Source: Spirosoma endbachense
GTDB taxonomy: Bacteria; Bacteroidota; Bacteroidia; Cytophagales; Spirosomataceae
Reading direction: 5' to 3'
NCBI RefSeq assembly: GCF_010233585.1
Contig: NZ_CP045997.1
Coordinates: 3,621,779 to 3,685,778, forward strand
DNA length: 64,000 nucleotides
Numbering within the stretch: position 1 is the first letter of the stretch; each line of letters starts with the position of its first letter. The notes under the pieces are model-generated. The model saw only the letters and a list, made by a program, of their open reading frames with translations. It was not told the DNA's origin and did not search any database. The translations under genes and the position numbers were made by a program. Shown here in pieces: positions 15,344 through 29,478 of this stretch.

Positions 15344-15383
15344 GGCGAACGAGGTTAATGGTTGATCGATGAGGTGAGGAAAT

Positions 15384-15818: not shown

Positions 15819-15854
15819 ATACAGTCAGAAGTAAAAGGTGTTCTGACTGTATAT
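15817..15854 (-). promoter_or_regulatory. Perfect hairpin overlapping the csgF start codon
   Basis: TTCTGACTGTATAT at 15841-15854 and its complement at 15817-15830 form a 14-bp stem with a 10-nt loop. In the mRNA the 3' arm ends with the first two bases of the csgF ATG. In a transcript reading through from csgE the start codon would be partly sequestered. A transcript from the conserved box next to it would begin within or after the 5' arm. It could instead be a protein-binding operator. Confidence 0.6.
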
Positions 15855-15887
15855 CGCGAAGAATCAGGAAGGTTAACAGTCGCAGAA
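15847..15887 (-). promoter_or_regulatory. Curli box upstream of csgF
   Basis: Read on the minus strand, TTCTGCGACTGTTAACCTT is followed by CTGATTCTTCGCGATATACAG. The same arrangement occurs upstream of csgA1 with the elements CTGTTAACCTT, CT-AT-CT and GCGATA-ACAG conserved and one or two single-base length changes. It ends 28 bp before the csgF ATG. It is most simply a shared promoter or activator site; the factor is unknown. Confidence 0.65.
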
Positions 15888-15897
15888 GCAGTTAACC

Positions 15898-15948
15898 AAA
15901 AAAATAAAGCGTAGCCTGGAAAGCCTGAACAGACTTCCTGAGCTACGC
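15898..15948 (-). terminator. Intrinsic terminator after csgE
   Basis: On the minus strand a stem made by GCGTAGC and GCTACGC (15942-15948 and 15909-15915), extended by partly paired bases, is followed by the T-rich run TTTATTTTTTT at 15908-15898. It lies 22 bp after the csgE stop and before the csgF box. It should end most transcripts coming from the curlin genes. Confidence 0.65.
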
Positions 15949-15970
15949 CCAACCAGTGAGTTGTTACCCG

Positions 15971-16465
15971 TTAATGCACTCCTGAGCCTTTCTGGTCCTT
16001 ACTGCCGAGTTGCTGTTGCGTTTCCTGATAACTAACCAGATATTGCCGCACAGTATCCAGAGCGTACTGGGCATCTGACTCCAGCAAATCATAGCGGGCC
16101 TGCACAAATTGCTGCCAGACAGGCTCATCGTCAATACTGATCAGGATCTGGTTGGCGGTTCCGGGTGAAGGTATTTCTTCAATCATGATGACCACATCGA
16201 CGGATGGAACAACCGACGTTAATCGGCGTTGTTGAGTCGTATCGGCCTGGGTTGGCAGCGCGGTCCAATACTTGTAGAACAGATCGTAAAAATCCTTGCC
16301 AACCTTGGTGCGTGAATTATCCAGGATCAGGCTGGTTCCGCCCATTTCACTCAGCGAACATTCCGTCAATTTCCCGTCCAGGTCAAACTCGTCGCCAGAA
16401 TCCGGATCTTGTGCAAACGCCAGGAAAGGGCTTAGTGCCAGAAGCAGTACGAATAGCGTTTTCAT
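15971..16465 (-). CDS. csgE: CsgE curli secretion specificity factor
   Basis: A 164-residue periplasmic protein of the CsgE family, which caps the CsgG pore and selects curlin substrates. The signal peptide ends at LAFAQ. The family core is visible: KVGKDFYDLFYKYW, then SVDVVIMIEEIPSPGTANQILISIDDEPVWQQFV, and a C-terminal helix (AQYALDTVRQYLVSYQET). Its start lies 2 bp after the CsgB-like gene, so the two are translationally close. A terminator follows its stop. Confidence 0.9.
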   Translation of the reverse strand: MKTLFVLLLALSPFLAFAQDPDSGDEFDLDGKLTECSLSEMGGTSLILDNSRTKVGKDFYDLFYKYWTALPTQADTTQQRRLTSVVPSVDVVIMIEEIPSPGTANQILISIDDEPVWQQFVQARYDLLESDAQYALDTVRQYLVSYQETQQQLGSKDQKGSGVH

Positions 16466-16467
16466 AA

Positions 16468-16911
16468 TTAGAAATTATTTTTGATAAGCAGTTGCATACC
16501 TCCGTTTTGCTCAATCCGCATCGACACCCCCATAGCAGGCATACTACCATCCTGCATCAACTGGTTGTTGTTGCCCCGCTGAATCACCTCCAACTGACCG
16601 TTATTTTGCCGCGACTGCCATTGTGCAGCATTATTATCGCCCTGTTGGACGAAGGAATATCGATTGTCGGAGCCAGAAATCGCTACGTCCAGTACATTAT
16701 TGGAGCCTTGTTGAACCAGATTAACGGCATTGCCTCTCCCCGTTTCCTGATAGTTTAGTTGGTTCAATTGCCCGGTTTGAACGAGGGTAATTTCGCTGGA
16801 AGTCAACCCCGTTCTATTCCGGTCATCCGGCGGTTGTCGGTAATACACCTCCGACTGAGCTGAAGTGGCCAGTGGTAGACCAAATAACAGCATAACAACA
16901 AGTCGTTTCAT
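16468..16911 (-). CDS. CsgB-like minor curlin / nucleator
   Basis: A 147-residue exported protein with a signal peptide ending at ATSAQ and about four imperfect curlin repeats (VQTGQLN, VQQGSNN, VQQGDNN, IQRGNNN). It is short and less regular than the three larger curlins upstream, and ends in a basic tail (MQLLIKNNF). Those traits match CsgB, the surface-attached nucleator that templates CsgA amyloid. The call rests on size, repeat type and position directly before csgE; it could instead be a minor subunit. Confidence 0.75.
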   Translation of the reverse strand: MKRLVVMLLFGLPLATSAQSEVYYRQPPDDRNRTGLTSSEITLVQTGQLNQLNYQETGRGNAVNLVQQGSNNVLDVAISGSDNRYSFVQQGDNNAAQWQSRQNNGQLEVIQRGNNNQLMQDGSMPAMGVSMRIEQNGGMQLLIKNNF

Positions 16912-16941
16912 GGCGATTGTGATTTGATGGAAAGCTTCGCT

Positions 16942-16973
16942 ATCCCGCCCGCAATTGAACTTGCGAACGGGAT
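16942..16973 (-). other. Stem-loop between csgA3 and the CsgB-like gene
   Basis: ATCCCG (16942-16947) pairs with CGGGAT (16968-16973), and inside it CGCAA (16950-16954) pairs with TTGCG (16961-16965), with a 2-nt internal loop. There is no T-run. In the transcript it sits between the last major curlin and the minor curlin and could set their ratio by pausing or RNA processing (inference). Confidence 0.4.
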
Positions 16974-16981
16974 GGGCAAAG

Positions 16982-17051
16982 CTTAATAAGAAGTCTGTGC
17001 TACTGTCGCCGTGTTGTTATTGCCCGTCTGACCAAAGCGGAGGGTATTACC
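16982..17051. repeat. 70-bp direct repeat, csgA3 copy
   Basis: This 70-bp block is identical to 17996-18065. It covers the last codons of csgA3, including the stop, and encodes the C-terminal LRFGQTGNNNTATVAQTSY. Perfect identity at DNA level, against divergent upstream halves, points to recent duplication or gene conversion. Confidence 0.85.
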
Positions 17052-17933
17052 AATCCCGATTTGAGTAAGCGTTAACGAATTGGCAATCCCCATTTGGCTT
17101 GCGGTTTCATAATCATACCCACCCGTCGGGAGTCCGGTCAGCAGGTTGCTACTACCCTCTTGCTGAAGTGTACCTGCGTTGAATGAACCATACTGATAAA
17201 ACTTAACTAAATTACCAGTTCCTGATTGAATGAGACTGGCCCGGTTGTCTCCGCCATACCCCTGTGATTGAACGTAGCCCGTATTGTCATCGCCGTTTTG
17301 TGTAATACTTAATTGGTTGTTATGGCTGAACATGGCCGAAACATTACCCACGTTACCATTGCCTGTCTGAGTTACTGCCAATTGGTTATTACTGCCCCAA
17401 CCTGCTGTAGCAAGGCCCTGGTTATCATCTCCCAATTGAGTGACAGTAGCAGTATTCGAATTGCCCGTAATGAAGAGAGCACTACCATAGTTCCCACTTC
17501 CCGTTTGGGTTAGTGTTGTGTGGTTGTTATTCCCTTCACCACCCCCCGATTCGCCATAGTTGTCGTTACCAGTCTGAGAGATAAACGCTTCATTTCCATT
17601 GCCCAAATAGGCCCCTGCCAGTGCAAAGTTTCTATTGCCTGTAGTGAGAGCCGTAGTATTGTTGCTATTGCCCTCCTGAAAGAAATACGACTGGTTATTA
17701 TCACCGGTAACTGTAATCGAGCCAACATTACTGTTCCCTTTTTGAGTGACCATCTCATCGAACAAACTGTTGCTGTTACCTGACTGGCTTACGGACAAAT
17801 TGTTGCTGATGCCTTGTTGCGTAATCGGAGCGTTATTCCCATTACCTACCTGGCTAAGCGATAAAGTATTCGACTGAGCATGGGCGGCACAGACAGATGC
17901 TGCCGCCCATACATTTAGGATGAGCTTTCTCAT
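16983..17933 (-). CDS. CsgA-like curlin repeat protein 3
   Basis: A 316-residue major curlin-type subunit. The signal peptide ends near VCAAHAQ, and the rest is a chain of roughly 14 repeats of the form Q-x-G-x-x-N (SQVGNGN, TQQGISN, SQSGNSN, TQKGNSN, SQTGNDN, TQLGDDN, TQNGDDN, GQTGNNN), the beta-strand-loop-strand unit that stacks into amyloid. It is twice the size of E. coli CsgA. It ends with a tail shared with the other two copies (LRFGQTGNNNTATVAQTSY). Secretion would use the CsgEFG machinery encoded just downstream. Confidence 0.88.
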   Translation of the reverse strand: MRKLILNVWAAASVCAAHAQSNTLSLSQVGNGNNAPITQQGISNNLSVSQSGNSNSLFDEMVTQKGNSNVGSITVTGDNNQSYFFQEGNSNNTTALTTGNRNFALAGAYLGNGNEAFISQTGNDNYGESGGGEGNNNHTTLTQTGSGNYGSALFITGNSNTATVTQLGDDNQGLATAGWGSNNQLAVTQTGNGNVGNVSAMFSHNNQLSITQNGDDNTGYVQSQGYGGDNRASLIQSGTGNLVKFYQYGSFNAGTLQQEGSSNLLTGLPTGGYDYETASQMGIANSLTLTQIGIGNTLRFGQTGNNNTATVAQTSY

Positions 17934-17995
17934 GATTGATAACGGATTTATGAATGAATAAAATGAATGGTTCGCCTGCCTATGGCTTTCACTAA

Positions 17996-18065
17996 CTTAA
18001 TAAGAAGTCTGTGCTACTGTCGCCGTGTTGTTATTGCCCGTCTGACCAAAGCGGAGGGTATTACC
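17996..18065. repeat. 70-bp direct repeat, csgA2 copy
   Basis: Identical to 16982-17051; it covers the 3' end of csgA2 with its stop codon. See the csgA3 copy for interpretation. Confidence 0.85.
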
Positions 18066-18959
18066 GTCGCCGGTTTGTGTAAGCGAAAATGAGTTCCCAT
18101 ACCCTTGCTGGACGGCACCAAAGTAGCGAATGCGGTAACGAACGTTGGGGTCTCGCTCCAGATCGGACAGTGTGTTGTCGTTTCCTTCCTGCATTACTGA
18201 GGCCGTATTAACGGAACCAGCCTGCGAAAGCTGTGCGTCGTTATTCGAACCGATCTGGCTCATGCTTCCGCGATTATAACTGCCATCGTTAGACGAAATC
18301 AGGCCGATATTGTTATCGCCACTCTGGGCGAGGCTGATCTGATTTCGATCACTACTCGAAGCAGTAGCATACCCTCTATTTCCGTCGCCGGTTTGGCTAA
18401 GGCTGATTTGGTTCCGATCGCTGCTCAACGCATAAGCCGTGCCGGTATTGGCATCACCGGTCTGGCTGATACTGATCAGGTTATGCGTACTGTGGTACGA
18501 TGAATAAGCCTCGCCCGTATTGCCGCTCCCCGTCTGTGTAACCCCAATATGATTGTCATCACTATGGTCGATTGAATAAGCCTGTCCCGTATTACGGTCT
18601 CCAACCTGAGTCAGCGTAACCTGATTGTGATCACTGCGAAATGTTGAGAAGGCAATGCCCAGGTTGTCATTACCCGTTTGCGAAATAGTGGTTTCATTTA
18701 AGTAATGATCGGCTTGAACAAGCGCGTTGTTTCTACTGCCAACAATCGAAATGCCTCCACTGAGATAGTCTCCTGATTGCTCAAAAGATGCGTAGTTGTT
18801 ATCCCCTGCTACTGAAACAGTACCCGTATTTGTTCGCCCCTGCTGGGTCGCCAACGCATTGTTTTCACTCCCCGACTGGCTCAGTGACAAGGTATTTGGC
18901 TGGGCCAGTGCAGCATTCAACGATGCAATTGCCCAGGCTGATAAAATGAGTTTTTTCAT
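17997..18959 (-). CDS. CsgA-like curlin repeat protein 2
   Basis: A 320-residue curlin-type protein. The ATG at 18959 is used because it gives the same leader as csgA1 (MKKLILSAWAIASLNAALAQ); the frame continues 54 bp upstream. About 13 Q-x-G-x-x-N repeats follow. In the middle the repeats alternate with stretches such as SSDRNQISLSQTGDGN and SSDRNQISLAQSGDNN that are nearly identical, showing internal duplication. It shares the final tail and 70 bp of identical DNA with csgA3. The bases just before the ATG (ATCAATC) are conserved in all three curlin genes. Confidence 0.88.
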   Translation of the reverse strand: MKKLILSAWAIASLNAALAQPNTLSLSQSGSENNALATQQGRTNTGTVSVAGDNNYASFEQSGDYLSGGISIVGSRNNALVQADHYLNETTISQTGNDNLGIAFSTFRSDHNQVTLTQVGDRNTGQAYSIDHSDDNHIGVTQTGSGNTGEAYSSYHSTHNLISISQTGDANTGTAYALSSDRNQISLSQTGDGNRGYATASSSDRNQISLAQSGDNNIGLISSNDGSYNRGSMSQIGSNNDAQLSQAGSVNTASVMQEGNDNTLSDLERDPNVRYRIRYFGAVQQGYGNSFSLTQTGDGNTLRFGQTGNNNTATVAQTSY

Positions 18960-19016
18960 GATTGATAAAAAATTGAGCGTGACTGGATATAGAATGGCCT
19001 TGTGTATTCTCACCGT

Positions 19017-19991
19017 TTAATAGGACCGTTGCGTAACTGTAGCTGTATTATTGCTGCCGAACTGCCCAAAACGCAGCACATTACCATCGCCGGTTTGGTT
19101 GAGTAGTAATGAGTTACCCATACCCTGAACCTGCAAAGCACTCGTAGACATTGACTCCAGCCCCGTGAGTACGTTATTGGTGCCCTCCTGTACAATTGTG
19201 GCTATATTCTGTGAGCTTCCCTGCAAAAGCCGGGCTTCATTGCTGGTGCCTGACTGAGTCAGCGTGGCCTGATTTTCATTGCCCTGCTGGTCAATTAAAG
19301 CCTGATTGGCATCGCCGGTTTGCGAAATCGTCGCCTGGTTATAATCACCATTACCCGGATTAGCTCCGCCGGTATGGTTTGTGCGGGCGTTGTTGTTATT
19401 TCCCAGCTGGCTTATTGAAATCTGGTTGTCCGAACTGTACTGGATATTCGCATTACTGAAGTTATCGTTCCCGGTTTGAGTAATCGAGACCTGGTTATTG
19501 TAGCTATCGAATGGAGCGGCCTGCCCATCGTATCCAGATGCTCTGACTGAACTCTGGTTGCGATTTCCAGTCTGTGTGATTGAAACCTGATGATTACCTC
19601 CCCAGCTTGATACCGTACTGGCGCTGTTTCCCTCGCCGTTCTGATAAATACTGAACTGGTTATTATTCGATATAAAGCTGTTGATAGTTGCCGTATTATC
19701 ATTACCCAGTTGCGTCATTGAGACCTGGTTTTCTGCGCTCCAGGTCTGTAGAGATGCCGTATTCCGGTTACCCGTAGTCGAAAGCGTCCCGATATTGCCT
19801 CGCCCGTACTGCGCAAAGGAAACCTGATTATTGTCGCCGGTAGTTGTGATCGTTCCCTGGTTTCCGCTGCCTCCCTGCGAAACCGGAGCGTTGTTTCCAT
19901 CACCCATCTGACTGAGCGATAACGTGTTTGACTGTGCACAAACAGCGCCTACACTAGCTGCTGTCAGTAACGATAAAATGAGCTTTTTCAT
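19017..19991 (-). CDS. CsgA-like curlin repeat protein 1 (first gene of the curli unit)
   Basis: A 324-residue curlin-type subunit starting at the ATG at 19991 (leader MKKLILSLLTAASVGAVCAQ). About 14 Q-x-G-x-x-N units are visible (SQMGDGN, AQYGRGN, TQLGNDN, YQNGEGN, TQTGNRN, SQLGNNN, DQQGNEN, VQEGTNN, GQFGSNN). The C-terminal tail LRFGQFGSNNTATVTQRSY is a diverged form of that in copies 2 and 3. It is the promoter-proximal gene: the conserved curli box lies 42 bp before its start. Having three large paralogues suggests a mixed or phase-specific fibre. Confidence 0.88.
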   Translation of the reverse strand: MKKLILSLLTAASVGAVCAQSNTLSLSQMGDGNNAPVSQGGSGNQGTITTTGDNNQVSFAQYGRGNIGTLSTTGNRNTASLQTWSAENQVSMTQLGNDNTATINSFISNNNQFSIYQNGEGNSASTVSSWGGNHQVSITQTGNRNQSSVRASGYDGQAAPFDSYNNQVSITQTGNDNFSNANIQYSSDNQISISQLGNNNNARTNHTGGANPGNGDYNQATISQTGDANQALIDQQGNENQATLTQSGTSNEARLLQGSSQNIATIVQEGTNNVLTGLESMSTSALQVQGMGNSLLLNQTGDGNVLRFGQFGSNNTATVTQRSY

Positions 19992-20033
19992 GATTGATTT
20001 ATTTAAGGTGAACTGACTATGAGTTTGTCTCAT

Positions 20034-20285: not shown

Positions 20286-20660
20286 ATGAAGCACCAGACC
20301 GTAACTATCTCGAATATCATCCGTACTGCGCTGCAATTAGGAGCTGGCTGCGTGGTAATTGCCTTATTGATAGGGTTATCGCTTCGGTGGCAGGCGTATT
20401 CGACCCAGAACGAAATTGAACGGGAATTATCAAATCAGACTTATCTGGAATTGACCTCGAACTTGCAAAATGTGAACTGTACGTATACTAATCATAGCTG
20501 GCTGGAGCCTTATCTTGAGTGCGAATCGATCCGGTAGGGCAAACTAAAACTGACGTATAACGCGCTCACATTCAACGGCATCCTGGTTCACTATAGCCCT
20601 TTTTACCTCTTTCGGACGGATAGCCTGTTTGATGAGCTCAAGGACAAAAAAATTGACTAA
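20286..20660 (+). pseudogene. Small membrane-protein gene with an in-frame TAG
   Basis: The reading frame starts MKHQTVTISNIIRTALQLGA and runs through one membrane segment (residues about 16-33) to a TAG at 20535-20537 after 83 codons. The same frame then continues without interruption for 40 more codons (GKLKLTYNALTFNGILVHYS and on) to TAA at 20658-20660. The downstream part has protein-like composition, so this looks like a 123-residue type II membrane protein interrupted by a nonsense mutation. Readthrough or a functional short form are alternatives. No relative was recognised. It lies between the curli box and the sigma factor gene. Confidence 0.55.
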
Positions 20661-20900
20661 AGGTCATTGAAAGCGTAGTCGAAACCATTCACTGAAACGC
20701 TTCTGATTGAATTGGCTAGTTGGTCTTTTCGATGGGTTGTGTCATACGATTTTGTGCCGACGATCAATTGGCGTTGTGCTTATTAATATCAGGAAAAGCG
20801 CATGGAAGGCGTACCAGCCTAATACTTAGCTGGTTCATTGCTTTTTGGCGTTCAAATCATTACCTATGCCCTGCCGGTAGTCATTGTAAAGCCGGGCAGT

Positions 20901-21584
20901 ATGACCACGGATACTGATAACCCTTGTCGAAACATTGAACAGGGTAGCCTGGAGTTTTATCAGGCGTTACTGGCCGACTATAAACAGGCCTGGGAGTGCT
21001 TGTATGTGAGCGCCTTCCGTAGTTTCGTGCCCTACGCCCGCCAGCGAAGCGCCATTTCTACGGACGACGCGCTGGACATTCTACAGGAGGGAATGGCGGA
21101 GTTTGCGCTTAAATTGAAAAGTAGGAAATATGTCTTTCAGGGAAGGCCGGTAGCTGCTTATGTATTTACCGTTTGCCGAAATCGATGGGTTAGTTTCCTG
21201 AGAAAAAATCACATTCAGAAGGTCGATATTAAGCAGGACACGGCTACTGAAGAAAGCGATTTGCCGGATGATTCTGAAAGTTCCCGATCTACTTTCAGCT
21301 TGTTAATTCAGAGTGATACGGATCAGGATGGTGAAAACGAAGCCGGATCATCCGATCGCGATGCGATCTGGGAAGATAATGAGGTCGATTGGGAAGCTGT
21401 TGGGCGGGCGTTCTCCGAAGTAAGTGACGATTGTCGGACAATGCTCCATTGTTTTTATGTCGATGAAAAATCACTGAGTGAGTGCGGGGCCCAGATTGGT
21501 TTGCAGGAAAATTCTGCCAAAGTAAAACGATTTCGGTGCGCTCAGCGACTGAAGGCCTTATACATTCAGTATAAACTAGAGTAG
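20901..21584 (+). CDS. RNA polymerase sigma-70 family factor (ECF-like)
   Basis: A 227-residue sigma factor. The start at 20901 is chosen from the N-terminus MTTDTDNPCRNIEQGSLEFY; the frame is open 63 bp further up. Region 2 is seen at about residues 20-100 (DALDILQEGMAEFALKLKSR, then VFTVCRNRWVSFLRKN). An acidic linker rich in Asp, Glu and Ser follows (about 110-160), and region 4 at about 170-225 (SDDCRTMLHCFYVDEKSLSE and the helix-turn-helix IGLQENSAKVKRFRCAQRL). It begins a tight operon with a membrane anti-sigma-like protein (2-bp gap) and a secreted papain-like protease. Its targets are unknown. Confidence 0.82.
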   Translation: MTTDTDNPCRNIEQGSLEFYQALLADYKQAWECLYVSAFRSFVPYARQRSAISTDDALDILQEGMAEFALKLKSRKYVFQGRPVAAYVFTVCRNRWVSFLRKNHIQKVDIKQDTATEESDLPDDSESSRSTFSLLIQSDTDQDGENEAGSSDRDAIWEDNEVDWEAVGRAFSEVSDDCRTMLHCFYVDEKSLSECGAQIGLQENSAKVKRFRCAQRLKALYIQYKLE

Positions 21585-21586
21585 TC

Positions 21587-22405
21587 ATGGAGTTATCTGA
21601 TGAGCTTCTTGAACAAATCGGCGCTTACCTGTCAGGGAAGCTATCGGCCGAGGAAAAGGACCGGTTTGACGATCGGCTGGCAATCGATTCATTGCTTCAG
21701 CAGGAAGTGGCCATTCAGCGGGAACTGAAACAGGGACTATCGTTTCTGGCGCAGAAAGATCGGTTTAAACAAGTGCACGCTGACCTTGATAAGCGTGGCC
21801 TGCTGAGCGAAATACCATCAGTGACCAGTCAACCAAACCGAACAGATTCGCCGATTCCTGATACAAAGTCGACCCCATTTTCCAGGAATCTGGATATTCC
21901 CCGCCGGTCATTTCGCTACGGCTGGGCAAGCTGGGCTATGGCCGCTTCAGTCGTCCTTGTGCTTGGCATCGGTTGGGTGCTTTATCGGAACCAGACTCAA
22001 AAACAGGATGAACTGGCGCAGAATGAGCGGATTTTCAATGATTTCTTTTCGGCTGAGATCAGATCGGCACCGCCCCTTTCGGATGATCCGGATCGGGTAT
22101 CGGCCTCCCCAGACAATGGTCAGGCGGGCGCGGATTCAGTACGGTTGCACGCTCTCGTCGAAAGGTTGCAACGAACTGAATCTCAGCCTGTAATTGACGA
22201 ACTTACCGACCTCTCGGCCAGCAGTCCTGGCCATTGGAGTGCCAGTGCGCAATGGTATCTGGCGCTGGCTTATCTGAAGAATGATCAGCGGACTGAGGCC
22301 CAGGTGCTTTTGCAAAAAATTAGCCAGCTGAACGGTCATCCGTACCAGCAGGAAGCCAGGCGATTGCTTAACCAATTAAGGTCTTCCATACCCCATCGGC
22401 CATGA
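21587..22405 (+). CDS. Membrane anti-sigma-like protein with TPR-like tail
   Basis: A 272-residue single-span membrane protein. Residues 1-55 (IGAYLSGKLSAEEKDRFDDR followed by a helical stretch) resemble the cytoplasmic helical head of Bacteroidota anti-sigma factors. There is no zinc-binding HxxxCxxC. A membrane segment spans about 113-133 (WASWAMAASVVLVLGIGW), and the outer part ends in TPR-like helices (HWSASAQWYLALAYLKNDQR). The order sigma factor then this gene, 2 bp apart, supports an anti-sigma role (inference). Its stop overlaps the next start by 4 bp. Confidence 0.7.
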   Translation: MELSDELLEQIGAYLSGKLSAEEKDRFDDRLAIDSLLQQEVAIQRELKQGLSFLAQKDRFKQVHADLDKRGLLSEIPSVTSQPNRTDSPIPDTKSTPFSRNLDIPRRSFRYGWASWAMAASVVLVLGIGWVLYRNQTQKQDELAQNERIFNDFFSAEIRSAPPLSDDPDRVSASPDNGQAGADSVRLHALVERLQRTESQPVIDELTDLSASSPGHWSASAQWYLALAYLKNDQRTEAQVLLQKISQLNGHPYQQEARRLLNQLRSSIPHRP

Positions 22406-23235
22406 AAATCGGCTGGCTCATCGGTATTCTTATTGCATCGCTGGCTTTTTCGGCATCAGCGCAAACCGATATTACGCCAGGTTTGTTGCTGGATGATGCT
22501 GGGTATGAGCAAGTCCCCTATCAGGAAATTGTAACGAAGGAGAAACTGCCCAGCCGGGTTTCATTTGAGTCATTTTGCCCAGCAGTACAGGCACAGGGAG
22601 CCTATAGTACCTGCACCGGATTTGCGTGTGGTTATTACCTGCGTACGATTCTGGAAGCGAAATCGAGGAAGATAACCGTCCCGGCTGATATTAACAAGCT
22701 GGCCTTTTCGCCGGGTTACCTGTACGAAAAAGCCAAATCTGACCGTGATTATGCCTGTACGGAAGGTGTCTATCTTTCTAAAGTTTTTAGTATCCTGAAA
22801 GAGGTCGGAGTCGTACCGTTCAGGCATTTTCCTTATCCAGCCTGCGGTCAACAAACTGTGCCCGTCGATGCGGTTGCCTCTCGCTATCGAATCCGTGAAT
22901 ACGAACGGCTTTTCAATGTACAGGATGATGAGCCTCAAAAAATTTACAATCTAAAAAAAGCACTGGCTGCGGGTAGTCCGGTGGTGGTTGGTATGGTTGT
23001 TCCAGCTTCCTTTTTCTTTGCGGGGAAAGTATGGGAACCTGCTTCTGGCGACGATCCAAAGGATAAGCGACTCAAAGGGCATGCACTGTGCATAATCGGC
23101 TATGACGACAAACGGCATGGCGGGGCTTTCCGGGTTATAAACAGTTTCGGAAAAGCATGGGCCGATGGCGGTTTCTGCTGGATCAGTTACCATGACATGG
23201 CCCGTTTTACACGCTATGGGTTTAAAATTAGTTAG
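22402..23235 (+). CDS. Papain-like (C1-type) cysteine protease, exported
   Basis: A 277-residue secreted protease of the papain fold. The signal peptide ends near SASAQ. The catalytic set is complete: Gln65 and Cys71 in QGAYSTCTGFACGYY (the same six-residue spacing as papain Gln19/Cys25), His227 in GHALCIIGYDD, and Asn247 in VINSFGKAWADGG. There is no long inhibitory propeptide; only about 40 residues precede the oxyanion Gln. It is translationally coupled to the anti-sigma-like gene by an ATGA overlap, and converges with a caspase operon, their ends only 13 bp apart. Substrate unknown. Confidence 0.85.
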   Translation: MKIGWLIGILIASLAFSASAQTDITPGLLLDDAGYEQVPYQEIVTKEKLPSRVSFESFCPAVQAQGAYSTCTGFACGYYLRTILEAKSRKITVPADINKLAFSPGYLYEKAKSDRDYACTEGVYLSKVFSILKEVGVVPFRHFPYPACGQQTVPVDAVASRYRIREYERLFNVQDDEPQKIYNLKKALAAGSPVVVGMVVPASFFFAGKVWEPASGDDPKDKRLKGHALCIIGYDDKRHGGAFRVINSFGKAWADGGFCWISYHDMARFTRYGFKIS

Positions 23236-23248
23236 CCATCACTCAACT

Positions 23249-24745
23249 TCAACGAAGGCCGCGCGTCGTTATCTGGATTCGATCTTCGGCTACTTCTTTG
23301 CGGTTTTTCGTACAGGTAACGGCCTCGATCATGTTCAGCATTGAACCGACAAAAATGGTGTATCCATTGTCGGTTCTGACATATAACTCCGAATTGGGTT
23401 TCGTTGGCAGCGAACAGAATGCATCTTCGGCAGCGTAAACAAGCAGGTACTCCATACCGAACGGCGCCGAACAGACAAATGGAACATCGGGCGAAATGCG
23501 AACATATTGATTCTCCTGCCCAGGCTTAATTTCGAAATCGTTTTCGAGCAGTGTTTTTGTGCCGTCTGCCAGTAAATACACCAATCGTAAATGACATGGC
23601 CGATTCGCCTTTGCTTCCACAAGTAATTGACTTCCTTCCCAATACTCCACATTTGTCCGGCCCCTATCGGTCCGAATCGCTACGCTCAGTGTTGTTCGTT
23701 CAGACGAGATTTTCTGCTGAATGGTATCCCGTATGGCCACAATCTGTTGATAATTGTCTGGCTTTAGTTTCAGATTCTGCTGGCCAAGCCAGGCCAGCGG
23801 CAGGTCGGTATTGGTCAACTGTTTCAGGACCTGATTGGTATGAGGGTTGTAAAGCTCTGCCACAATCAGCAGATTGTTCAGGTCCTCCTGGTAAGACCCG
23901 CGCACAAGTAGCGATCGTTCAGTATGTTGCGCGGGTGAAAGCACCTCAATTGACGGAATCTTCTGAAGGAGACTACCGAACGTTGCAAAAATCCGATCCG
24001 ACAAAGCGTTGTTCACTCCGCAGCCTTTGTAGGTAAACATCTCCAGTGTGATTTGCTGAGCGTTGGCCGGAAGGTTCTCTTTAAGGTGATTTGCCAGTGA
24101 AGCCAGCACAGTCAGCAGATCCTTCTGTTCGCTTGCAGCCTGTTCGGTATCGGCGGCAGTGGCCGTAAAAGCCGTTGCCGGCCATTTGTCCGTTTTACTA
24201 ATTCCGGCTATTCGAAAATCACGATAAATAGACAACTGGCGGTCAAACACGAACATAACCCGAACCTCGGCCAAATATTGAAACTGGAATGGGCGCCCTT
24301 GTTTATCAGTACCTTGTAGTTGTTTGCTGAGGTACAAATTGATAAACGGCTGCCCATCTTTTGTTTGCTGGATATCGTAGCGGGCCTTACCGAAATCCAT
24401 CGTATTGACAACCGGCTTTCCACCGGCAAAAATGCGACAGTCTTTTACATACTCCTCAATAGTCGTATAGGCATTTGCCGGATTTCTAAACTCATTATAG
24501 ACCAATACTTCCCGGCTTCGGAAGGCGTCTCTCACCAATCCTCTGATGTGATTTTGCAGAGCCTCAAAAGGCTGGTTTGCTTCATAATGTGTCAGAATTT
24601 CCAGATTCGCCAGGTACTTGTCCTTTACCAGTCGGCGGGCATTTTCAGCGATCATTACCCGTTCGCTTTGCGTATACGACTGCGCCCTGACCGGAAATCC
24701 AGCCAGCATAAGGAGTGCAGTTATTGCAGAAAGCACTGGCTTCAT
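23249..24745 (-). CDS. Exported DUF4384-like protein, last gene of the caspase operon
   Basis: A 498-residue exported protein (signal peptide ends near FPVRAQ). The N-terminal half is a mixed domain with a Gln-rich helix and beta strands (FQFQYLAEVRVMFVFDRQLS). The C-terminal part (about 370-480) resembles DUF4384: VEYWEGSQLLVEAKANRPCH, then LRLVYLLADGTKTLLENDFE, and a late PFGMEYLLVYAAED strand. DUF4384 domains often occur beside or fused to secreted caspase-fold proteases, which fits the operon. The middle part (ITLEMFTYKGCGVNNALSDR) may be an adhesion or CsgG-like fold; I cannot decide. Function unknown. Confidence 0.65.
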   Translation of the reverse strand: MKPVLSAITALLMLAGFPVRAQSYTQSERVMIAENARRLVKDKYLANLEILTHYEANQPFEALQNHIRGLVRDAFRSREVLVYNEFRNPANAYTTIEEYVKDCRIFAGGKPVVNTMDFGKARYDIQQTKDGQPFINLYLSKQLQGTDKQGRPFQFQYLAEVRVMFVFDRQLSIYRDFRIAGISKTDKWPATAFTATAADTEQAASEQKDLLTVLASLANHLKENLPANAQQITLEMFTYKGCGVNNALSDRIFATFGSLLQKIPSIEVLSPAQHTERSLLVRGSYQEDLNNLLIVAELYNPHTNQVLKQLTNTDLPLAWLGQQNLKLKPDNYQQIVAIRDTIQQKISSERTTLSVAIRTDRGRTNVEYWEGSQLLVEAKANRPCHLRLVYLLADGTKTLLENDFEIKPGQENQYVRISPDVPFVCSAPFGMEYLLVYAAEDAFCSLPTKPNSELYVRTDNGYTIFVGSMLNMIEAVTCTKNRKEVAEDRIQITTRGLR

Positions 24746-24791
24746 ACAGTTGATTAGTTGATACAGAATTGCGATTACACAACGAGTGGCT

Positions 24792-25427
24792 TCAGGGCAT
24801 CGCCTTTCTGGGTGCTGTTTCAGCTAATCGAACATTACCCAGCAGAACCGTCCAGCGATGTTCTTCATAGAAAGGATCTTTCCGATTGCGCAGGTCTACG
24901 TCCATTTGTTTGGCGGTTTTGGCTTTATAGACAGGCTGACCTTTACGGTTAAAGGCCTGAAACCGCTGAAAGTAAGTAGCCGTTGTGAGATATCCCCGAT
25001 CCGTTTCTGCCCAGTCGCCCAGTAAGGCAAGGTCATAGAAGGTAATGGCTATATCGAAATACTTTTTATCCAGATTCTTTAGTCTGCGTAAATAAATTGC
25101 CAATGGATACTCCCTGGTTATTTTGTTTGAACCAACCTGCATGGTGGCATCGGGCAAAAAAAGCATCAGGGCATTTTCAATAGCCAGCTCACGGATGTTG
25201 TCCTGCTGGTCGGGATCGGCGACTACAGTTAAGTAGCGTTGAAATTCGGACACTTTCTGCCCGGTCAATTGTCGGAAGTCACGCAGTTGTTTATCACTTA
25301 GCTGAGTTTCTACCACAACCTGATGGTCATCGAGCGGCAATGGGCACTCCTGCCCCGATGCATGATCAGGCAGAAAAACGCTGAGTGCCAATGCCAAGCA
25401 ACAAACCACTAACCTATTCATAATCAA
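24792..25427 (-). CDS. Exported hypothetical protein in the caspase operon
   Basis: A 211-residue protein with an N-terminal signal peptide (ends near HASGQ) and no motif I recognise. The mature part is helical, then has strands ending in HRWTVLLGNVRLAET. The layout, with about 100 helical residues followed by YFDIAITFYDLALLG and a Gln/Tyr-rich strand region, loosely resembles the N-terminal half of the next gene, so the two may share a fold. It lies 58 bp after caspase A and 46 bp before the DUF4384-like gene. Confidence 0.6.
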   Translation of the reverse strand: MIMNRLVVCCLALALSVFLPDHASGQECPLPLDDHQVVVETQLSDKQLRDFRQLTGQKVSEFQRYLTVVADPDQQDNIRELAIENALMLFLPDATMQVGSNKITREYPLAIYLRRLKNLDKKYFDIAITFYDLALLGDWAETDRGYLTTATYFQRFQAFNRKGQPVYKAKTAKQMDVDLRNRKDPFYEEHRWTVLLGNVRLAETAPRKAMP

Positions 25428-25485
25428 TTATGTTAAACTACCCCTGACTGCTTTACTGACTATAAAAAAATCATCGATATTCTCA

Positions 25486-26676
25486 TTACCACACTTCCTG
25501 AATCGCTGCCCGTTTGTAGTGTTGCCCGTCGGCCGCAACTTCCGAGAGTCGCTCAATGAGGTTAATTTGCTGAATATGATCGGCATTCAGGTATAATCGC
25601 CGAACAAACGTTTCGATCGGCTGCACGTCGCCCAATGTCGAATTCACGTAAATATCGATGCGGGCGTTTTTCGAAAAGAAACCCGTCAGGCGATTCATAG
25701 CGGCCAATCGCTGCTGAGAAGACAGTGTTTTATCCGTCAACTCGTTCAGGTGACGGTTCATCTGATCGAAGCTAAGATTTGTACTGGTTGTTACGGAACT
25801 ATCGGACTTGCTCAAATCAGGGCCCGGAGTTGTGGCCAATGCAGTAGCTGTTGGTGTAATACCAACTACATTTACTTCATAAATAGATTGTTTAGCACGC
25901 GTTGCCTGATGCCGCGTCAGTCGGGTCTGAGCATCCCGAAGCAATGTTAACCAGCTGATGTTTTTATTGTAACGACTGGCCAGTTCCAGCGCTTCATCGA
26001 ACGAGCGGGTATAAAAACTCCCGGAATCGGGATGAGCACACGCCTGTTGCGGAGGTTGGCTACTGGCAATGAGCGCGTCGCCTTTCATGTTTAGAAAAAG
26101 CGTTCGGTAGGCTTCATTCAGCAACTCGTCGGTGAGCGTCAACGCCTTCGGCGAAATTGTTTTTTTCACCATGCCGCGCATGTTATTGACCAGATTATTG
26201 CAGCAATCGCCCATTGTAATACACAGTCGTGCATGCTTAGCTTTAAGTGCCTGATGGACAGCCATCAGACCAGGATTTTGCTCGCTTGCCTGCTCATCTT
26301 TTTCAAGCAGCAAAACCGGAAAACGGCCCGTACGCTGACTCGCGTTATAGCCGTGTCCAGTGTAATACAAAAAGAGAATATCGTTCGGATTTGGGGATAG
26401 ATCACGTAATACATCGTCGAATCGTTTGCGGCTAAACTCATCATCCCAGATCACCTGTTCACTCAATTGGTAATTAATAGCGGCAGCCAACTGAATAAAT
26501 TGCCGATGCATGATCTCGACATCCCGTTTGCAGGCTTTATACAGCAATGGATCTTTGGTATCGGCCACCAGAATGGCATGAACCGTTTGAGCCTGACAAT
26601 AAAAAGCCAACAGGCTAAACCCAATGACGAAAACGGCCATTCGTTTTTGTTGCCGGAGAGCGAAGACGGCTGGCAT
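25486..26676 (-). CDS. Caspase-fold (C14-like) protease A, exported
   Basis: A 396-residue exported protein of the caspase/metacaspase fold. The leader precedes the first strand HAILVADTKDP. The catalytic His is in LYYTGHGYN (His108) and the catalytic Cys in MGDCCNN (Cys159 by alignment to DxC). The domain ends near residue 260, followed by a Thr/Ser-rich linker and an alpha-helical C-terminal region (about 310-396) with no known motif. The gene starts 3 bp after caspase B. Caspase-fold enzymes of this type cleave after Arg/Lys or Asp; specificity cannot be read here. An internal Met at position 13 is a possible alternative start. Confidence 0.82.
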   Translation of the reverse strand: MPAVFALRQQKRMAVFVIGFSLLAFYCQAQTVHAILVADTKDPLLYKACKRDVEIMHRQFIQLAAAINYQLSEQVIWDDEFSRKRFDDVLRDLSPNPNDILFLYYTGHGYNASQRTGRFPVLLLEKDEQASEQNPGLMAVHQALKAKHARLCITMGDCCNNLVNNMRGMVKKTISPKALTLTDELLNEAYRTLFLNMKGDALIASSQPPQQACAHPDSGSFYTRSFDEALELASRYNKNISWLTLLRDAQTRLTRHQATRAKQSIYEVNVVGITPTATALATTPGPDLSKSDSSVTTSTNLSFDQMNRHLNELTDKTLSSQQRLAAMNRLTGFFSKNARIDIYVNSTLGDVQPIETFVRRLYLNADHIQQINLIERLSEVAADGQHYKRAAIQEVW

Positions 26677-26679
26677 GGC

Positions 26680-27795
26680 TTAATCGGCTTTGAACATGAA
26701 CTTGCCTCTCAACCGACCTTCGAGGTAAGGAGGCTGCTTAAAACCACGATTCTCAAGGCCCTGATCGATCCGGTCGACCAGTTCAAAAATATCGACATTC
26801 GGCTGGCCAATATGTTTTACCAGTTCGCTCGTAAAAAGGCCGTTTTCCTGATCGCCATCGTAAGCTTGTTTTCCGGGTTCGGTGGCAAAAACGATCATCG
26901 TACCCACAGCGGGCTGAACGGGAGCAAACGTCAATTCACCGGCTCCTCTTCGCCAGGATCGATACGGGTTATTTCGGCAGGCATCCCAAAAAATCATATT
27001 CGCACCTTTAGGGTTAGCATAGGCCATACGGCTTATAATCTGACGTAAGGGATAGCATTCAAATTCAACGTCAGGCTCTGCTTTGGGATCGGCATCTACC
27101 GGCTGCACATAATTCTCTCCGCCGACCATAAGCCCATGTCCGGCATAATAAAAAAGCCCTACGTTATTGGAGCCGAGATTAGTCACAAATGAATCGAAAG
27201 TTTGTTTCAGATCACGCAAGGGCAGATTTTCTTTATAGACGACAGTAAAGCCAAGCTTTTCCAGCTGCTGCCTGACAGCCCGGCCGTCGTTCGGCGGATT
27301 TTTAAGCGGGTATTTCGTATAATTTCCGTTGGCAACAATCAGTGCCAGCCGTTTTTGCCCCTGAACACTTTTTGAGGTTATTTCGGGCTGACAAAGGATG
27401 ATACGCCGTTCGGAGATGGTCGTTCCAATGGCATTGGTAGCTTTAACGTAGATTTCGTTTGACCCAACAACCAACGGAATGACATCCGACACCTCCTGAC
27501 TGCCACTAAATCGCTTAAATCCGCGCTGTTGCCCAGTCAATTCGTTTCCGTTATGAACAAACTGCAACTGGGTTACAGCGTCGGCAGATTGAATAAAAAC
27601 CGTGGCAGTATAGACTAAAGTATGCTCGGTTGTCTGTTTTGGCTGTGGAGTTTTCCAGGCTATAGTCGGTGCAGTCGATGGCCCTTTCTGCATAGAAACC
27701 CAATCGCTGCGGGCTGAAATCGTTACGGACTGCTGAGCGGCCAGTGGGTCTGAAACGAACAGAAGCAGCAAGAGAAAAAGTAAACTGATTTTCAT
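26680..27795 (-). CDS. Caspase-fold (C14) protease B, exported
   Basis: A 371-residue exported caspase-family protease. The signal peptide ends near DPLAAQ. Residues about 22-135 form a beta-sandwich domain (VTQLQFVHNGNEL, VVGSNEIYVKATNAIG) like those that precede bacterial caspase domains. The protease domain starts near KRLALIVANGNYTKYPLKNP, with His220 in FYYAGHGL and Cys273 in FWDACRNNPY, both in classical context. It ends just after the domain (FMFKAD). It is translated just before caspase A; two different caspases side by side suggest a cascade or two specificities (inference). Confidence 0.9.
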   Translation of the reverse strand: MKISLLFLLLLLFVSDPLAAQQSVTISARSDWVSMQKGPSTAPTIAWKTPQPKQTTEHTLVYTATVFIQSADAVTQLQFVHNGNELTGQQRGFKRFSGSQEVSDVIPLVVGSNEIYVKATNAIGTTISERRIILCQPEITSKSVQGQKRLALIVANGNYTKYPLKNPPNDGRAVRQQLEKLGFTVVYKENLPLRDLKQTFDSFVTNLGSNNVGLFYYAGHGLMVGGENYVQPVDADPKAEPDVEFECYPLRQIISRMAYANPKGANMIFWDACRNNPYRSWRRGAGELTFAPVQPAVGTMIVFATEPGKQAYDGDQENGLFTSELVKHIGQPNVDIFELVDRIDQGLENRGFKQPPYLEGRLRGKFMFKAD

Positions 27796-27806
27796 GACCG
27801 CATTGA

Positions 27807-28586
27807 TTAGAAATGAACCTGAACCCCAATCGTTGGCGAGTTGCCGATGTAGTTAAAAACAACCCGCTGGCCTGTACCCTGCTTTTGCCTGACGTTCTTT
27901 CTTCCTTTCAAAAAAGTGTATGCTACATCCGTTATCAGCAGCGCCAGGGCCAGACGGGTAGCCACCAGATAGTTATGGTGCAGTCGATTCGCTTCCGTAT
28001 AATCCGATTCGTTCAATTGACTGGCATACAGATCATACTGTTTTTTTGAGCGGCTATTCTGCGAAAAACCATACACTAACAGCCCGGCATAGGCTCCCGT
28101 GATTAAAGGCCGAAGTCCGATTTTTCGGTTAGGCTGAACGAAAATAGTACCCACGCCAGGCGCTAAAACCGAGATAAGCGCATTGGCAGGCCCACCACCA
28201 ATCGCTTTCTGTTGGGCCAGTTTGGGCGGTTGCTTTACGAGCACGGTTGCCCGAATCGCGTCATCGATGGTCAGACCATCCAGCCGGTAATCCCAATAAA
28301 TCACCTTATTCTTACCGGGCAGTACGGCTTTCCCTACGTCGCCGGTAACGGTCGATGCATTTAATAACCCTCGGGTACGGCTTTCGACCTGTAGGTAAAC
28401 CGAATCATGGCTGGTAATTCCCGCGACATCATAGACCACTTTTACACGTTCGCTATCTAACGTGACCCGAATGTCGGAAACCGAAGCGGCCTTATTACCC
28501 AAAGACTGTCCATAGACATGCCTATGAGCCAGACATGCTATCAGTAAATAGACGAGCCCAATGGAGCAATAAACGGGTTTTATCAT
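27807..28586 (-). CDS. Hypothetical membrane protein with beta domain, caspase operon
   Basis: A 259-residue protein. After a leader (ends near HVYGQS) comes a beta domain (SDIRVTLDSERVKVVYDVAG and GDVGKAVLPGKNKVIYWDYR), a pattern I associate with Bacteroidota proteins next to caspase and sulfatase-modifying genes. The C-terminal half has two or three membrane segments (LISVLAPGVGTIFVQ, PLITGAYAGLLVYGF, ATRLALALLITDVAYTFL) resembling DUF5683-like domains. The start overlaps the LamG gene by 4 bp, and it ends 11 bp before caspase B. Role unknown; it could anchor the protease complex. Confidence 0.6.
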   Translation of the reverse strand: MIKPVYCSIGLVYLLIACLAHRHVYGQSLGNKAASVSDIRVTLDSERVKVVYDVAGITSHDSVYLQVESRTRGLLNASTVTGDVGKAVLPGKNKVIYWDYRLDGLTIDDAIRATVLVKQPPKLAQQKAIGGGPANALISVLAPGVGTIFVQPNRKIGLRPLITGAYAGLLVYGFSQNSRSKKQYDLYASQLNESDYTEANRLHHNYLVATRLALALLITDVAYTFLKGRKNVRQKQGTGQRVVFNYIGNSPTIGVQVHF

Positions 28587-29377
28587 CTCTGGTATAAAGC
28601 GTTAATTTCCGTTTCCGTAAGACCTCGATTATAGATTCGCACCTCGTCCATCAACCCATTAAAGGCGTTAATATCACCCATCCAGGCACTCCCAAACCGC
28701 AATGAACCGCCAGGGCAGTTATCAATTGGTTTCGTCTGCGATTCGGATTGGCCTCTTGCTACGCCATTCAGGTAAATTTTTACTGTCTGCCCGTCGTACT
28801 GGATAACCAAATGATACCACTGATTCACCTTAAACGCTGGTTCATAGGCCGTTAGTTGGATCGTAGATTCAAATTTGTCGCAAAGATTATCGCGATGCAC
28901 ATCTGCCTGAAAATCGTAACCACCGCTTATATCCCCCGTTATGTGTGGTTTAATTTTAGCACTATACTGGTGGTTCAGGTCATCTTTAAAATTCGATTTC
29001 TCATAAATATGGCTACTGGAAAGTACCTGTACCGGCTTGATCCAGACGCTTATAGACATAGTTGCCGGTCGAAGTTTACCATCATCAGGTATTTCGAAAT
29101 AATCATCGACCCCATCCAGAAGCAACGCTGAGTTTGGCATCGCGTTTTTGTCAGGGCCAAACGAAGCTCCATTAATAGTATTTCCCCGCAGGTTATTCCC
29201 ACTTCCATCGAGTGTATTCCCGCTGAAAGCATAATAGGCAATCAATCCATTCGTCACACTGTCCTGTAAGGGTGGCAAATCCCAGTTTTCACAACCAGAA
29301 ACAAGGCTGATACCCAGCAACAGGATATATAATTTTAATTGCCTTGTGCTTGCCAATCGTTTTCTCATAACAAACAT
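28583..29377 (-). CDS. LamG/concanavalin-like lipoprotein, first gene of the caspase operon
   Basis: A 264-residue lipoprotein (lipobox SLVSGC) with one LamG-like jelly-roll domain (Laminin_G_3 type). Diagnostic segments are GLIAYYAFSGNTLDGSG, ALLLDGVDDYFEIP, MSISVWIKP, WYHLVIQYDGQTVKIYLNG and the terminal FNGLMDEVRIYNRGLTETEI. Such domains bind carbohydrates or proteins at the cell surface. It opens a six-gene minus-strand operon and is translationally coupled to the next gene. An ATG 9 bp inside is an alternative start. Three TTTACTAC half-sites lie just upstream. Confidence 0.85.
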   Translation of the reverse strand: MFVMRKRLASTRQLKLYILLLGISLVSGCENWDLPPLQDSVTNGLIAYYAFSGNTLDGSGNNLRGNTINGASFGPDKNAMPNSALLLDGVDDYFEIPDDGKLRPATMSISVWIKPVQVLSSSHIYEKSNFKDDLNHQYSAKIKPHITGDISGGYDFQADVHRDNLCDKFESTIQLTAYEPAFKVNQWYHLVIQYDGQTVKIYLNGVARGQSESQTKPIDNCPGGSLRFGSAWMGDINAFNGLMDEVRIYNRGLTETEINALYQR

Positions 29378-29413: not shown

Positions 29414-29478
29414 GTAGTAAAAAATAACTATTTAATCTTTGCAAAAGCTAATTTTATTCTTTACTACCGTTTTACTAC
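29414..29478 (-). promoter_or_regulatory. Three TTTACTAC half-sites upstream of the caspase operon
   Basis: GTAGTAAA at 29414-29421 faces TTTACTAC at 29460-29467 and at 29471-29478. The arrangement is one inverted copy plus two direct copies 11 bp apart, about one helical turn. On the minus strand, TACATTTC at 29417-29410 also resembles a -7 box, with a TTTTG upstream at a slightly long spacing. This looks like an operator for a dimeric regulator; the regulator is unknown. Confidence 0.4.

Follow-up and report, generated by a model that had tools for sequence, protein, structure and literature searches.

Nine genes of Spirosoma endbachense, arranged in two convergent operons and encoding an ECF sigma factor, a membrane anti-sigma-like protein, a papain-like protease, two caspases, a LamG lipoprotein, a membrane protein, the exported protein exp and a DUF4384-type protein, very probably constitute one unit. 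The nine genes co-occur in related genomes and remain linked across several layouts, and the catalytic residues are conserved. A tentative reading, which we hold at somewhat below even chances, is that they form a signalling module outside the cytoplasm, whose cysteine proteases would act on the anti-sigma protein or through it, in a presumed direction from the proteases to the sigma factor. The initial annotation, made from the DNA alone, could match the locus to no described system. The literature searched likewise yielded none, which suggests that the module is undescribed.

Organization of the locus

The window, a 64,000-nucleotide stretch of the genome, contains the nine genes as intact, uninterrupted ORFs at the places given in the initial annotation. 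The block proposed there holds all nine genes but starts near position 20838 rather than 20286, an 83-amino acid ORF at 20286–20537 not being counted in. The plus-strand operon encodes the ECF sigma factor (20838–21584), the membrane anti-sigma-like TPR protein (21587–22405) and the exported papain-like cysteine protease (22402–23235), the last two genes overlapping by 4 bp. The sigma factor ORF opens with a TTG at 20838; its probable start is the internal ATG at 20901, because the orthologue in genome G008 begins there. The two operons are 13 bp apart: the last base of the papain gene is at 23235, and that of the DUF4384-type gene, on the opposite strand, is at 23249.

The minus-strand operon starts with a LamG-domain lipoprotein (28583–29377; PF13385, 89.9 bits against a Pfam cut-off of 27.6), in which the cysteine of SLVSGC reads as a lipobox. 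It is followed by a membrane protein (27807–28586) with a hydrophobic segment near residue 208. This protein matches no Pfam family at E ≤ 1, and its orthologue adjoins caspase A in orthologous loci; DUF5683 was weighed as an assignment and found no support in the Pfam search. Caspase A (26680–27795), caspase B (25486–26676), exp (24792–25427) and an exported protein with NTF2-like, LpoB-like and DUF4384-like domains (23249–24745) complete the operon. Export signals of the locus proteins are predictions from hydropathy and sequence. Divergent from the sigma gene, a curli block on the minus strand (13928–20033) encodes CsgG, CsgE, a 147-amino acid protein and three curlin-repeat proteins (PF03783, PF10627, PF07012).

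The base composition of the stretch is unremarkable. RNA families and tRNAs were not detected in the window, and neither a generic sigma-70 scan (18 matches against 14.1 in shuffles, SD 3.4) nor a terminator scan (10 against 11.2, SD 3.7) returned an excess.

The sigma/anti-sigma pair and its upstream elements

The sigma factor is assigned to the ECF class by TIGR02937 (57.0 bits, cut-off 42.9). The anti-sigma-like protein scores 38.6 bits against a cut-off of 100 for the anti-sigma family NF052375, and its TPR match also lies below the Pfam cut-off. It is classed as an anti-sigma protein by architecture: it directly follows the ECF sigma factor and, across 12 aligned homologues, has a cytosolic N-domain, one transmembrane segment (about residues 114–132) and a periplasmic C-terminal TPR-like domain, a topology taken from hydropathy and sequence. 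The conserved N-domain, single transmembrane segment and C-terminal repeat-like domain support a putative anti-sigma role. Among the same 12 homologues the linker displays no conserved cleavage site.

A promoter-like element, TTG-N20-TACCTATG (20838–20868, plus strand), precedes the probable sigma start. It is present with a similar spacer in five sigma loci (the window, L046, L047, L051 and L052), from which alone it was first drawn. Three Larkinella loci carry TTG-N19-TACCTATG, whose spacer is shorter by one base and has another sequence, and the element is absent before six other sigma genes (L070, L072, L073, L074, L045 and L130); therefore, it characterizes the closer relatives. A search of the 10.3-Mb genome that allowed up to 3 mismatches gave a single match. 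A fair reading of these sequences is that the element may be a plain housekeeping-type promoter.

The initial annotation implied that the sigma factor drives the caspase operon. Direct control through a shared promoter was searched for and not found: the one genomic copy of the sigma-gene element does not precede the LamG gene, and no promoter element is common to both operons. Upstream of the LamG gene there is instead a near-palindromic AAAATAGKTATTTT-type element (29421–29434, minus strand), which recurs with 0–3 mismatches upstream of all 7 close orthologues; the 10 other LamG-type regions (stand-alone paralogues, Siphonobacter and Telluribacter) match it only with 3–6 mismatches, and the regions before 7 sigma genes with 4–6. 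The shuffle test overstates this element because the consensus was drawn from the very sequences tested. The near-palindrome may nevertheless serve as a binding site for a sigma factor or a regulator.

Three cysteine proteases

All three proteases have complete catalytic residues, as first annotated. Caspases A and B belong to Peptidase C14, each with a His–Cys dyad in a Peptidase_C14 domain (PF00656, cut-off 21.4). In caspase A an N-terminal region precedes the paracaspase-like domain, which scores 101.3 bits over residues 148–366 and whose nearest solved relative is the MALT1 paracaspase (E = 1e-11); the dyad H220/C273 is kept in 23 of 24 aligned homologues. Caspase B scores 36.9 bits and keeps H108/C159 in all 15 homologues aligned. 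A third caspase paralogue, at locus L044, is devoid of both dyad residues. Two Asp columns are invariant in both alignments (24/24 and 15/15); by comparison with MALT1, these columns may line an acidic S1 pocket of the kind with which Arg/Lys-specific ortho- and paracaspases cleave after basic residues.

The third protease belongs to Peptidase C1 (PF00112, 35.1 bits, cut-off 20.7), with Gln, Cys, His and Asn at Q65/C71/H227/N247. These residues are kept in 18 of 19 aligned homologues (the window protein and 17 of 18 others), the lone exception (genome G143, locus L094) having lost Cys and His. The catalytic-residue alignments cover homologues matched over more than 60% of the query, thus excluding the broken G082 copies, and also leave out the caspase A and papain of G015.

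NTF2-like domains and gene fusions

The N-domain of the DUF4384 protein belongs to the NTF2-like superfamily (NTF2/SnoaL fold); the DUF4384-like domain match falls below the Pfam cut-off. Exp probably adopts an NTF2-like fold as well, although the exp model is poor. Profiles built from trimmed, unfused rows, with caspase–exp fusions removed, were compared using hhalign. Exp exhibits weak similarity to the C-terminal region of caspase B (probability 51, E = 1.5e-4), to ntfA (60) and to the N-terminal part of an 820-amino acid protein (56), to which the N-domain of the DUF4384 protein is also weakly similar (72). The latter domain against exp gave a probability below 20, as did the other cross-domain pairs, except neighbouring pieces of one protein. 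Matches of the caspase B profile on exp proteins were left out of use, this profile being contaminated by caspase–exp fusions.

Such fusions link the components of the locus directly. The caspase domain is fused to exp at L048, L049, L050 and L052, caspase B to a DUF4384 part at L046, and papain to DUF4384 at L069. When 84,980 species genomes were scanned with a limiting pattern, 11 exp relatives were found, and these share their clusters with caspase A. Among exp homologues elsewhere in the order and family, 17 of 19 loci read have no nearby caspase A or full caspase B match.

Conservation of the module in related genomes

Among 150 genomes of the family, caspase A orthologues occur in 14 and sigma orthologues in 14. 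Thirteen of the 15 genomes with either gene have both and 135 have neither (Fisher p = 1e-16, a value that ignores phylogeny). To count as a caspase A orthologue, a match had to reach 45% identity along most of the protein, which retains 14 of the 36 genomes with any match at 1e-20; this limit was set after seeing the matches, and the sigma E-value limit of 1e-25 before its search. Two partial genes were left out of the caspase A count, one in G067 (60% identity over residues 1–99, at a contig end of a 71% complete genome) and one in G082 (76% over residues 272–349, broken). With both counted, 13 genomes have both genes, 3 caspase A only and 1 the sigma gene only.

The linkage of the two operons also holds in relatives. 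The convergent layout is found in ten genomes, some with extra genes, and the same core genes recur in this layout in five genera. Spirosoma luteum DSM 19990 is among the carriers of the orthologous locus (L083). The sigma orthologues span six genera and, three Larkinella genomes aside, every one of them has a caspase A-type gene within its locus. In those three genomes a SusD gene is split between the sigma and caspase A contigs, or the contigs end close to it, so that a SusC/SusD pair probably lies between the two operons, across the contig edges. The placement of anti-sigma at L046 and L052, sigma at L056 and caspase B–exp at L048 relied on tblastn and frame checks.

Two further layouts put sigma, anti-sigma and protease genes on one strand. 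In a second, diverged locus of the S. endbachense genome, a single strand encodes sigma, anti-sigma, caspase B, papain–DUF4384, exp and the DUF4384 protein, and this series converges on the caspase A, membrane protein and LamG genes. Its 850-amino acid protein, which we presume to be actin-like (SrfB-like), matches in Pfam only DDR, at 13.5 bits, below the cut-off of 24.6. In G015, papain, LamG protein, caspase A and DUF4384 protein genes are followed by sigma and anti-sigma at the tail. That two unrelated operons merely converge by chance, as their separate upstream elements might suggest, is very improbable and largely refuted by the co-occurrence and the several layouts, together with the joint decay in G082, where the genes of either side, sigma and caspase alike, survive only as broken remnants.

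The sigma orthologue is patchy, occurring in 2 of 18 sampled genomes of the genus. G042 retains a caspase A operon in a locus without caspase B, and has no papain or sigma match genome-wide. A caspase B relative in G031, within the family, has papain alongside and no sigma or exp match; outside the family, caspase B relatives were found in 3 of 395 genomes of the phylum, with no sigma, exp or papain match alongside.

Discussion

The evidence supports the proposal that the locus is a single proteolytic system acting outside the cytoplasm and linked to its own sigma/anti-sigma pair; the implied control of the caspase operon by the sigma factor is unsupported by the sequence. ECF sigma/membrane anti-sigma pairs of the RseA/DegS type are released by regulated proteolysis, in which a DegS-type protease makes the site-1 cut. 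NTF2-like domains act as oligomerizing hubs in CaMKII. In the proposed model, caspase A, together with the LamG lipoprotein and the membrane protein, would sense a signal at the envelope; putative NTF2-like domains would bring caspase B, exp and the DUF4384 protein into one assembly, which may activate the caspases by proximity; and the proteases would cleave the anti-sigma protein on its periplasmic side, in the manner of DegS-type site-1 proteases, freeing the sigma factor. We infer both the direction of signalling and the step at the hub. Against the model stand the separate upstream elements, the linker without a conserved cleavage site, the weak NTF2-type similarities, the frequent role of NTF2-like folds as enzymes rather than hubs, and the reduced gene set of G042. 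The fullest version, a periplasmic complex of exported caspases and papain that is scaffolded by an NTF2 hub, activated by proximity and serves as the site-1 protease for the ECF anti-sigma, an envelope counterpart of the apoptosome wired to transcription, is speculative and, taken whole, unlikely.

The proteases may instead lie on the output side: the sigma factor would be released by a different protease, or because the TPR-like domain of the anti-sigma senses a signal directly, and would switch on the proteases; these would degrade or mature envelope proteins and spare the anti-sigma. The second locus and G015, with one strand and mostly short gaps, favor this arrangement, as sigma, anti-sigma and proteases are therefore probably co-expressed there. 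However, the caspase operon of the window has its own, different upstream element, and we regard the output reading as rather less than probable.

It is improbable that the module guards or remodels the adjoining curli amyloid system, its proteases clearing misfolded curlin or trimming fibres. In 7 of 12 genomes, representing three genera, curli genes adjoin the sigma gene in divergent orientation; csgG occurs in 11 of the 14 genomes that have caspase A and in 25 of the 136 that do not (p = 9e-6, search at 1e-30); and of the seven genomes with a CsgG of at least 70% identity, six have the locus and the seventh, G067, a caspase A fragment. Nonetheless, the sigma–curli adjacency may reflect one ancestral event. 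It was not found in 5 of the 12 flanks read (G033, with 2.5 kb read, G020, G046, G083 and G060), nor at the second locus or in G015. Moreover, G020, G046 and G042 have the caspase locus and no csgG match, csgG of G008 is on another contig, and 25 curli genomes lack the module.

An exported conflict or self-recognition device, with caspases and papain directed against neighbours or against their own cell and with the exported NTF2-like proteins as partners or inhibitors, is also quite unlikely. The patchy spread, gene fusions, broken G082 copy and varying accessory genes, including one for a Tubulin_2 protein, fit such a device, but the same core genes recur convergently in five genera. PADLOC provided no convincing match to a known anti-phage defence system, only weak scores of 17.6 and 23.2 bits for a generic caspase model, and the EACC1 caspase conflict system NF047832 scored 31.5 and 28.1 bits against a cut-off of 140.

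Returning to the signalling module, it resembles the RseA/DegS type in that an ECF sigma gene precedes that of an anti-sigma-like protein with one transmembrane segment; it differs in that its candidate proteases are predicted cysteine proteases encoded within the locus. EACC2/TRADD-N caspase systems (Kaur et al. 2021, eLife 10:e70394, PMC8195603), in the part of the source available, combine an ECF sigma factor with a DUF1822 TPR protein. None of the nine proteins matches DUF1822 at E ≤ 1, and unlike those systems the window has proteases with predicted export signals and papain, NTF2-like and DUF4384 proteins as partners; the text of that paper mentions neither periplasm nor NTF2. Bacterial orthocaspases, in the excerpt available (PMC6426788), share the His–Cys dyad and the tie between DUF4384 and caspase-type proteins, and have an acidic specificity pocket for which the window caspases offer candidate residues, whereas the window has paired exported caspases in a sigma-linked locus; papain and sigma factor go unmentioned in that excerpt. 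A Baltic Sea survey likewise records metacaspases in Bacteroidetes; its accessible portion links their neighbours to sulfur metabolism and does not mention a signal peptide (PMC4933709). For Bacteroidetes curli systems, with which the block adjoining the window locus agrees, the sections at hand report several csgA/B homologues in Spirosoma and make no mention of caspase (PMC3521004).

The bacterial caspase literature found, as far as its available text goes, consists of sequence surveys or concerns death and conflict within the cytosol. By combining two conserved exported caspases with a sigma/anti-sigma switch, the present locus offers a small, concrete and testable case for caspase roles outside the cytosol and, if the cleavage model is true, would represent a cysteine-protease route to sigma-factor control.

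Organization of the converging locus

The genome that holds the window is a single contig of 10.3 Mb, and the initial annotation was right in describing a nine-gene converging locus, as all nine reported genes are real open reading frames. Three genes make up the plus-strand operon (20838-23235, +), specifying in order an ECF sigma factor, a membrane anti-sigma-like protein and an exported papain-like protease; the second and third overlap by 4 bp. The products of the minus-strand operon (29377-23249, -) are a LamG lipoprotein, a membrane protein, caspases A and B, an exported protein of probable NTF2-like fold (exp) and a DUF4384-type protein, and this operon ends 13 bp from the end of the plus-strand operon. 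An 83-residue open reading frame with a hydrophobic segment is located at 20286-20537, where the initial annotation began the locus; it is only a putative member of the operon.

Conservation in the family

The reading of these genes as one unit is strengthened by a comparison of 150 genomes of the family, drawn evenly from a larger group. Orthologues of caspase A (at least 45% identity) and of the sigma factor (E ≤ 1e-25) each occur in 14 genomes, together in 13, and neither is found in 135 (Fisher p = 1e-16, uncorrected for phylogeny). Of 18 genomes sampled from the genus, 2 carry the sigma orthologue. The loci read retain the convergent layout in ten genomes (the window genome, G008, G140, G033, G016, G020, G072, G046, G083 and G060), with extra genes inside or between the operons in Siphonobacter, and with exp lost and a fusion replacing most of the DUF4384 protein in G008. 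Two genomes are exceptions to the co-occurrence of sigma and caspase A orthologues. The G042 locus holds caspase A, exp and DUF4384 genes and lacks caspase B, and neither papain nor sigma is matched in that genome at the limits used. In G015 a diverged sigma gene and the genes for papain, a LamG protein, a diverged caspase A and a DUF4384 protein lie together on one strand. When 84,980 species genomes were scanned with only two peptide patterns, 11 exp relatives of at least 60% identity emerged, all clustered with caspase A.

In three Larkinella genomes the contig of the caspase operon reaches SusC and then ends; in G100 and G091 it extends past SusC and breaks off at the start or in the middle of SusD. 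In G116 and G091 the contig with sigma and papain starts inside SusD, and in G100 it stops ~0.9 kb beyond papain. The simplest reading is that a SusC/SusD pair was inserted between the two operons. In G082 the pair lies within one contig (L062/L129, G082:C14), flanked by anti-sigma and papain remnants on one side and by caspase, exp and DUF4384 remnants on the other; because broken genes flank it on either side, the sigma-side and caspase-side genes have decayed together.

Additional copies and arrangements

The window genome contains a diverged copy of the module (G000:C1:1955256 to about 1977931), whose proteins are about 26-54% identical to those of the window. One strand carries, in order, sigma, anti-sigma, caspase B, an exported protein, a papain-DUF4384 fusion, exp, an exported protein and a DUF4384 protein, followed by five more genes (850, 427, 1762, 177 and 443 aa; read in L069, G000:C1:1955000-1974500, and L043). 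This whole row converges on genes for caspase A, the membrane protein and a LamG protein. None of the additional proteins scanned, the three largest and the 427-residue one, exceeded a Pfam cut-off. In G143 and G007, caspase B, exp, a longer papain and the DUF4384 protein cluster in further different orders, and in G007 weak matches to sigma, anti-sigma and caspase A also follow one another.

The window genome (G000) has thirteen Peptidase_C14 matches over the cut-off. Tandem units of lipoprotein, membrane protein and caspase A-type genes occur in L044 (G000:C1:3555000-3574999), where one caspase lacks both His and Cys and a ClpB-like ATPase gene, as read from sequence, adjoins. In Larkinella (L057-L059), LamG and caspase A also form stand-alone units, located downstream of genes for proteins of 541 and 252 aa; the end of the 252-aa protein suggests a LytTR-type regulator. 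In G083 the DUF4384 gene is followed by a gene for a Tubulin_2 protein (L070:4274-7315; PF13809, 188.3 bits), and G042 has a protein of comparable length and start near its DUF4384 gene (L071:4235-7270).

Proteases and their partners

All 15 aligned caspase B-type proteins and 23 of the 24 aligned caspase A-type proteins retain the His-Cys dyad, which is missing from a third paralogue in L044. Of the 19 aligned papain homologues, 18 keep the catalytic residues and the G143 papain does not. By sequence, the closest solved relative of caspase A is the MALT1 paracaspase, and caspase B has no solved relative at E ≤ 0.1. Two Asp columns, putatively those of the MALT1 S1 pocket, are invariant in the aligned caspases and would suit cleavage after Arg or Lys.

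Caspase domains are fused to exp in L048, L049, L050 and L052, caspase B is followed by a DUF4384 part in a single frame in L046, and the papain of the second locus carries DUF4384 (PF14326, 42.2 bits), with similar longer papains elsewhere. These fusions suggest that the partners act together.

Across the order, 152 of 390 genomes, from 55 of 129 genera, contain a match to the exp profile. Caspases are present in two (G143 and G007) of 19 exp loci picked and read; near the other 17, neither caspase A nor a full caspase B was matched. Many of these 17 carry a cassette in which a lipoprotein gene and exp are accompanied by genes for a second exported protein and for a protein of ~820 residues. 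Thus the module seems to have drawn on an exported family that predates it. The cassette recurs in L100-L107 and L109, with no caspase match nearby.

Regulation and neighborhood

In five loci (window, G008, G140, G033 and G016) the sigma gene is preceded by the element TTG-N20-TACCTATG, which has a similar spacer in each and resembles the Bacteroidota housekeeping promoter. In three Larkinella loci the form is TTG-N19-TACCTATG and the spacer differs; the element is absent from six other sigma loci. It occurs once in the window genome at ≤3 mismatches, and a different near-palindrome precedes the LamG gene in 7 of 7 close orthologues, from which its consensus was drawn. Because the upstream elements are distinct, the proposal that one sigma factor drives both operons finds no sequence support in the window. 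In one-strand layouts, co-expression of the sigma and protease genes is likely.

A curli block is divergent to the sigma gene in the window. Among 12 genomes with searched flanks, 7 have curli genes beside the sigma gene (window, G140, G008, G016, G100, G116 and G091); such genes were not found there in G020, G046, G083, G060 or G033 (2.5 kb flank only). None adjoin sigma at the second locus of the window genome or in G015, and none was matched in the 12 kb read at the broken G082 copy. Of the 14 genomes that have caspase A, 11 contain csgG, compared with 25 of the 136 without it. We treat the curli link as a lead because the adjacency may represent one ancestral neighborhood.

Relation to known systems

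Among the papers searched, no description of this module was found. The closest described are the TRADD-N/EACC2 caspase systems (PMC8195603), from which the module differs in domains and location. We judge that the locus uses exported cysteine proteases in ECF sigma/anti-sigma extracytoplasmic signaling, as a variant of such signaling.
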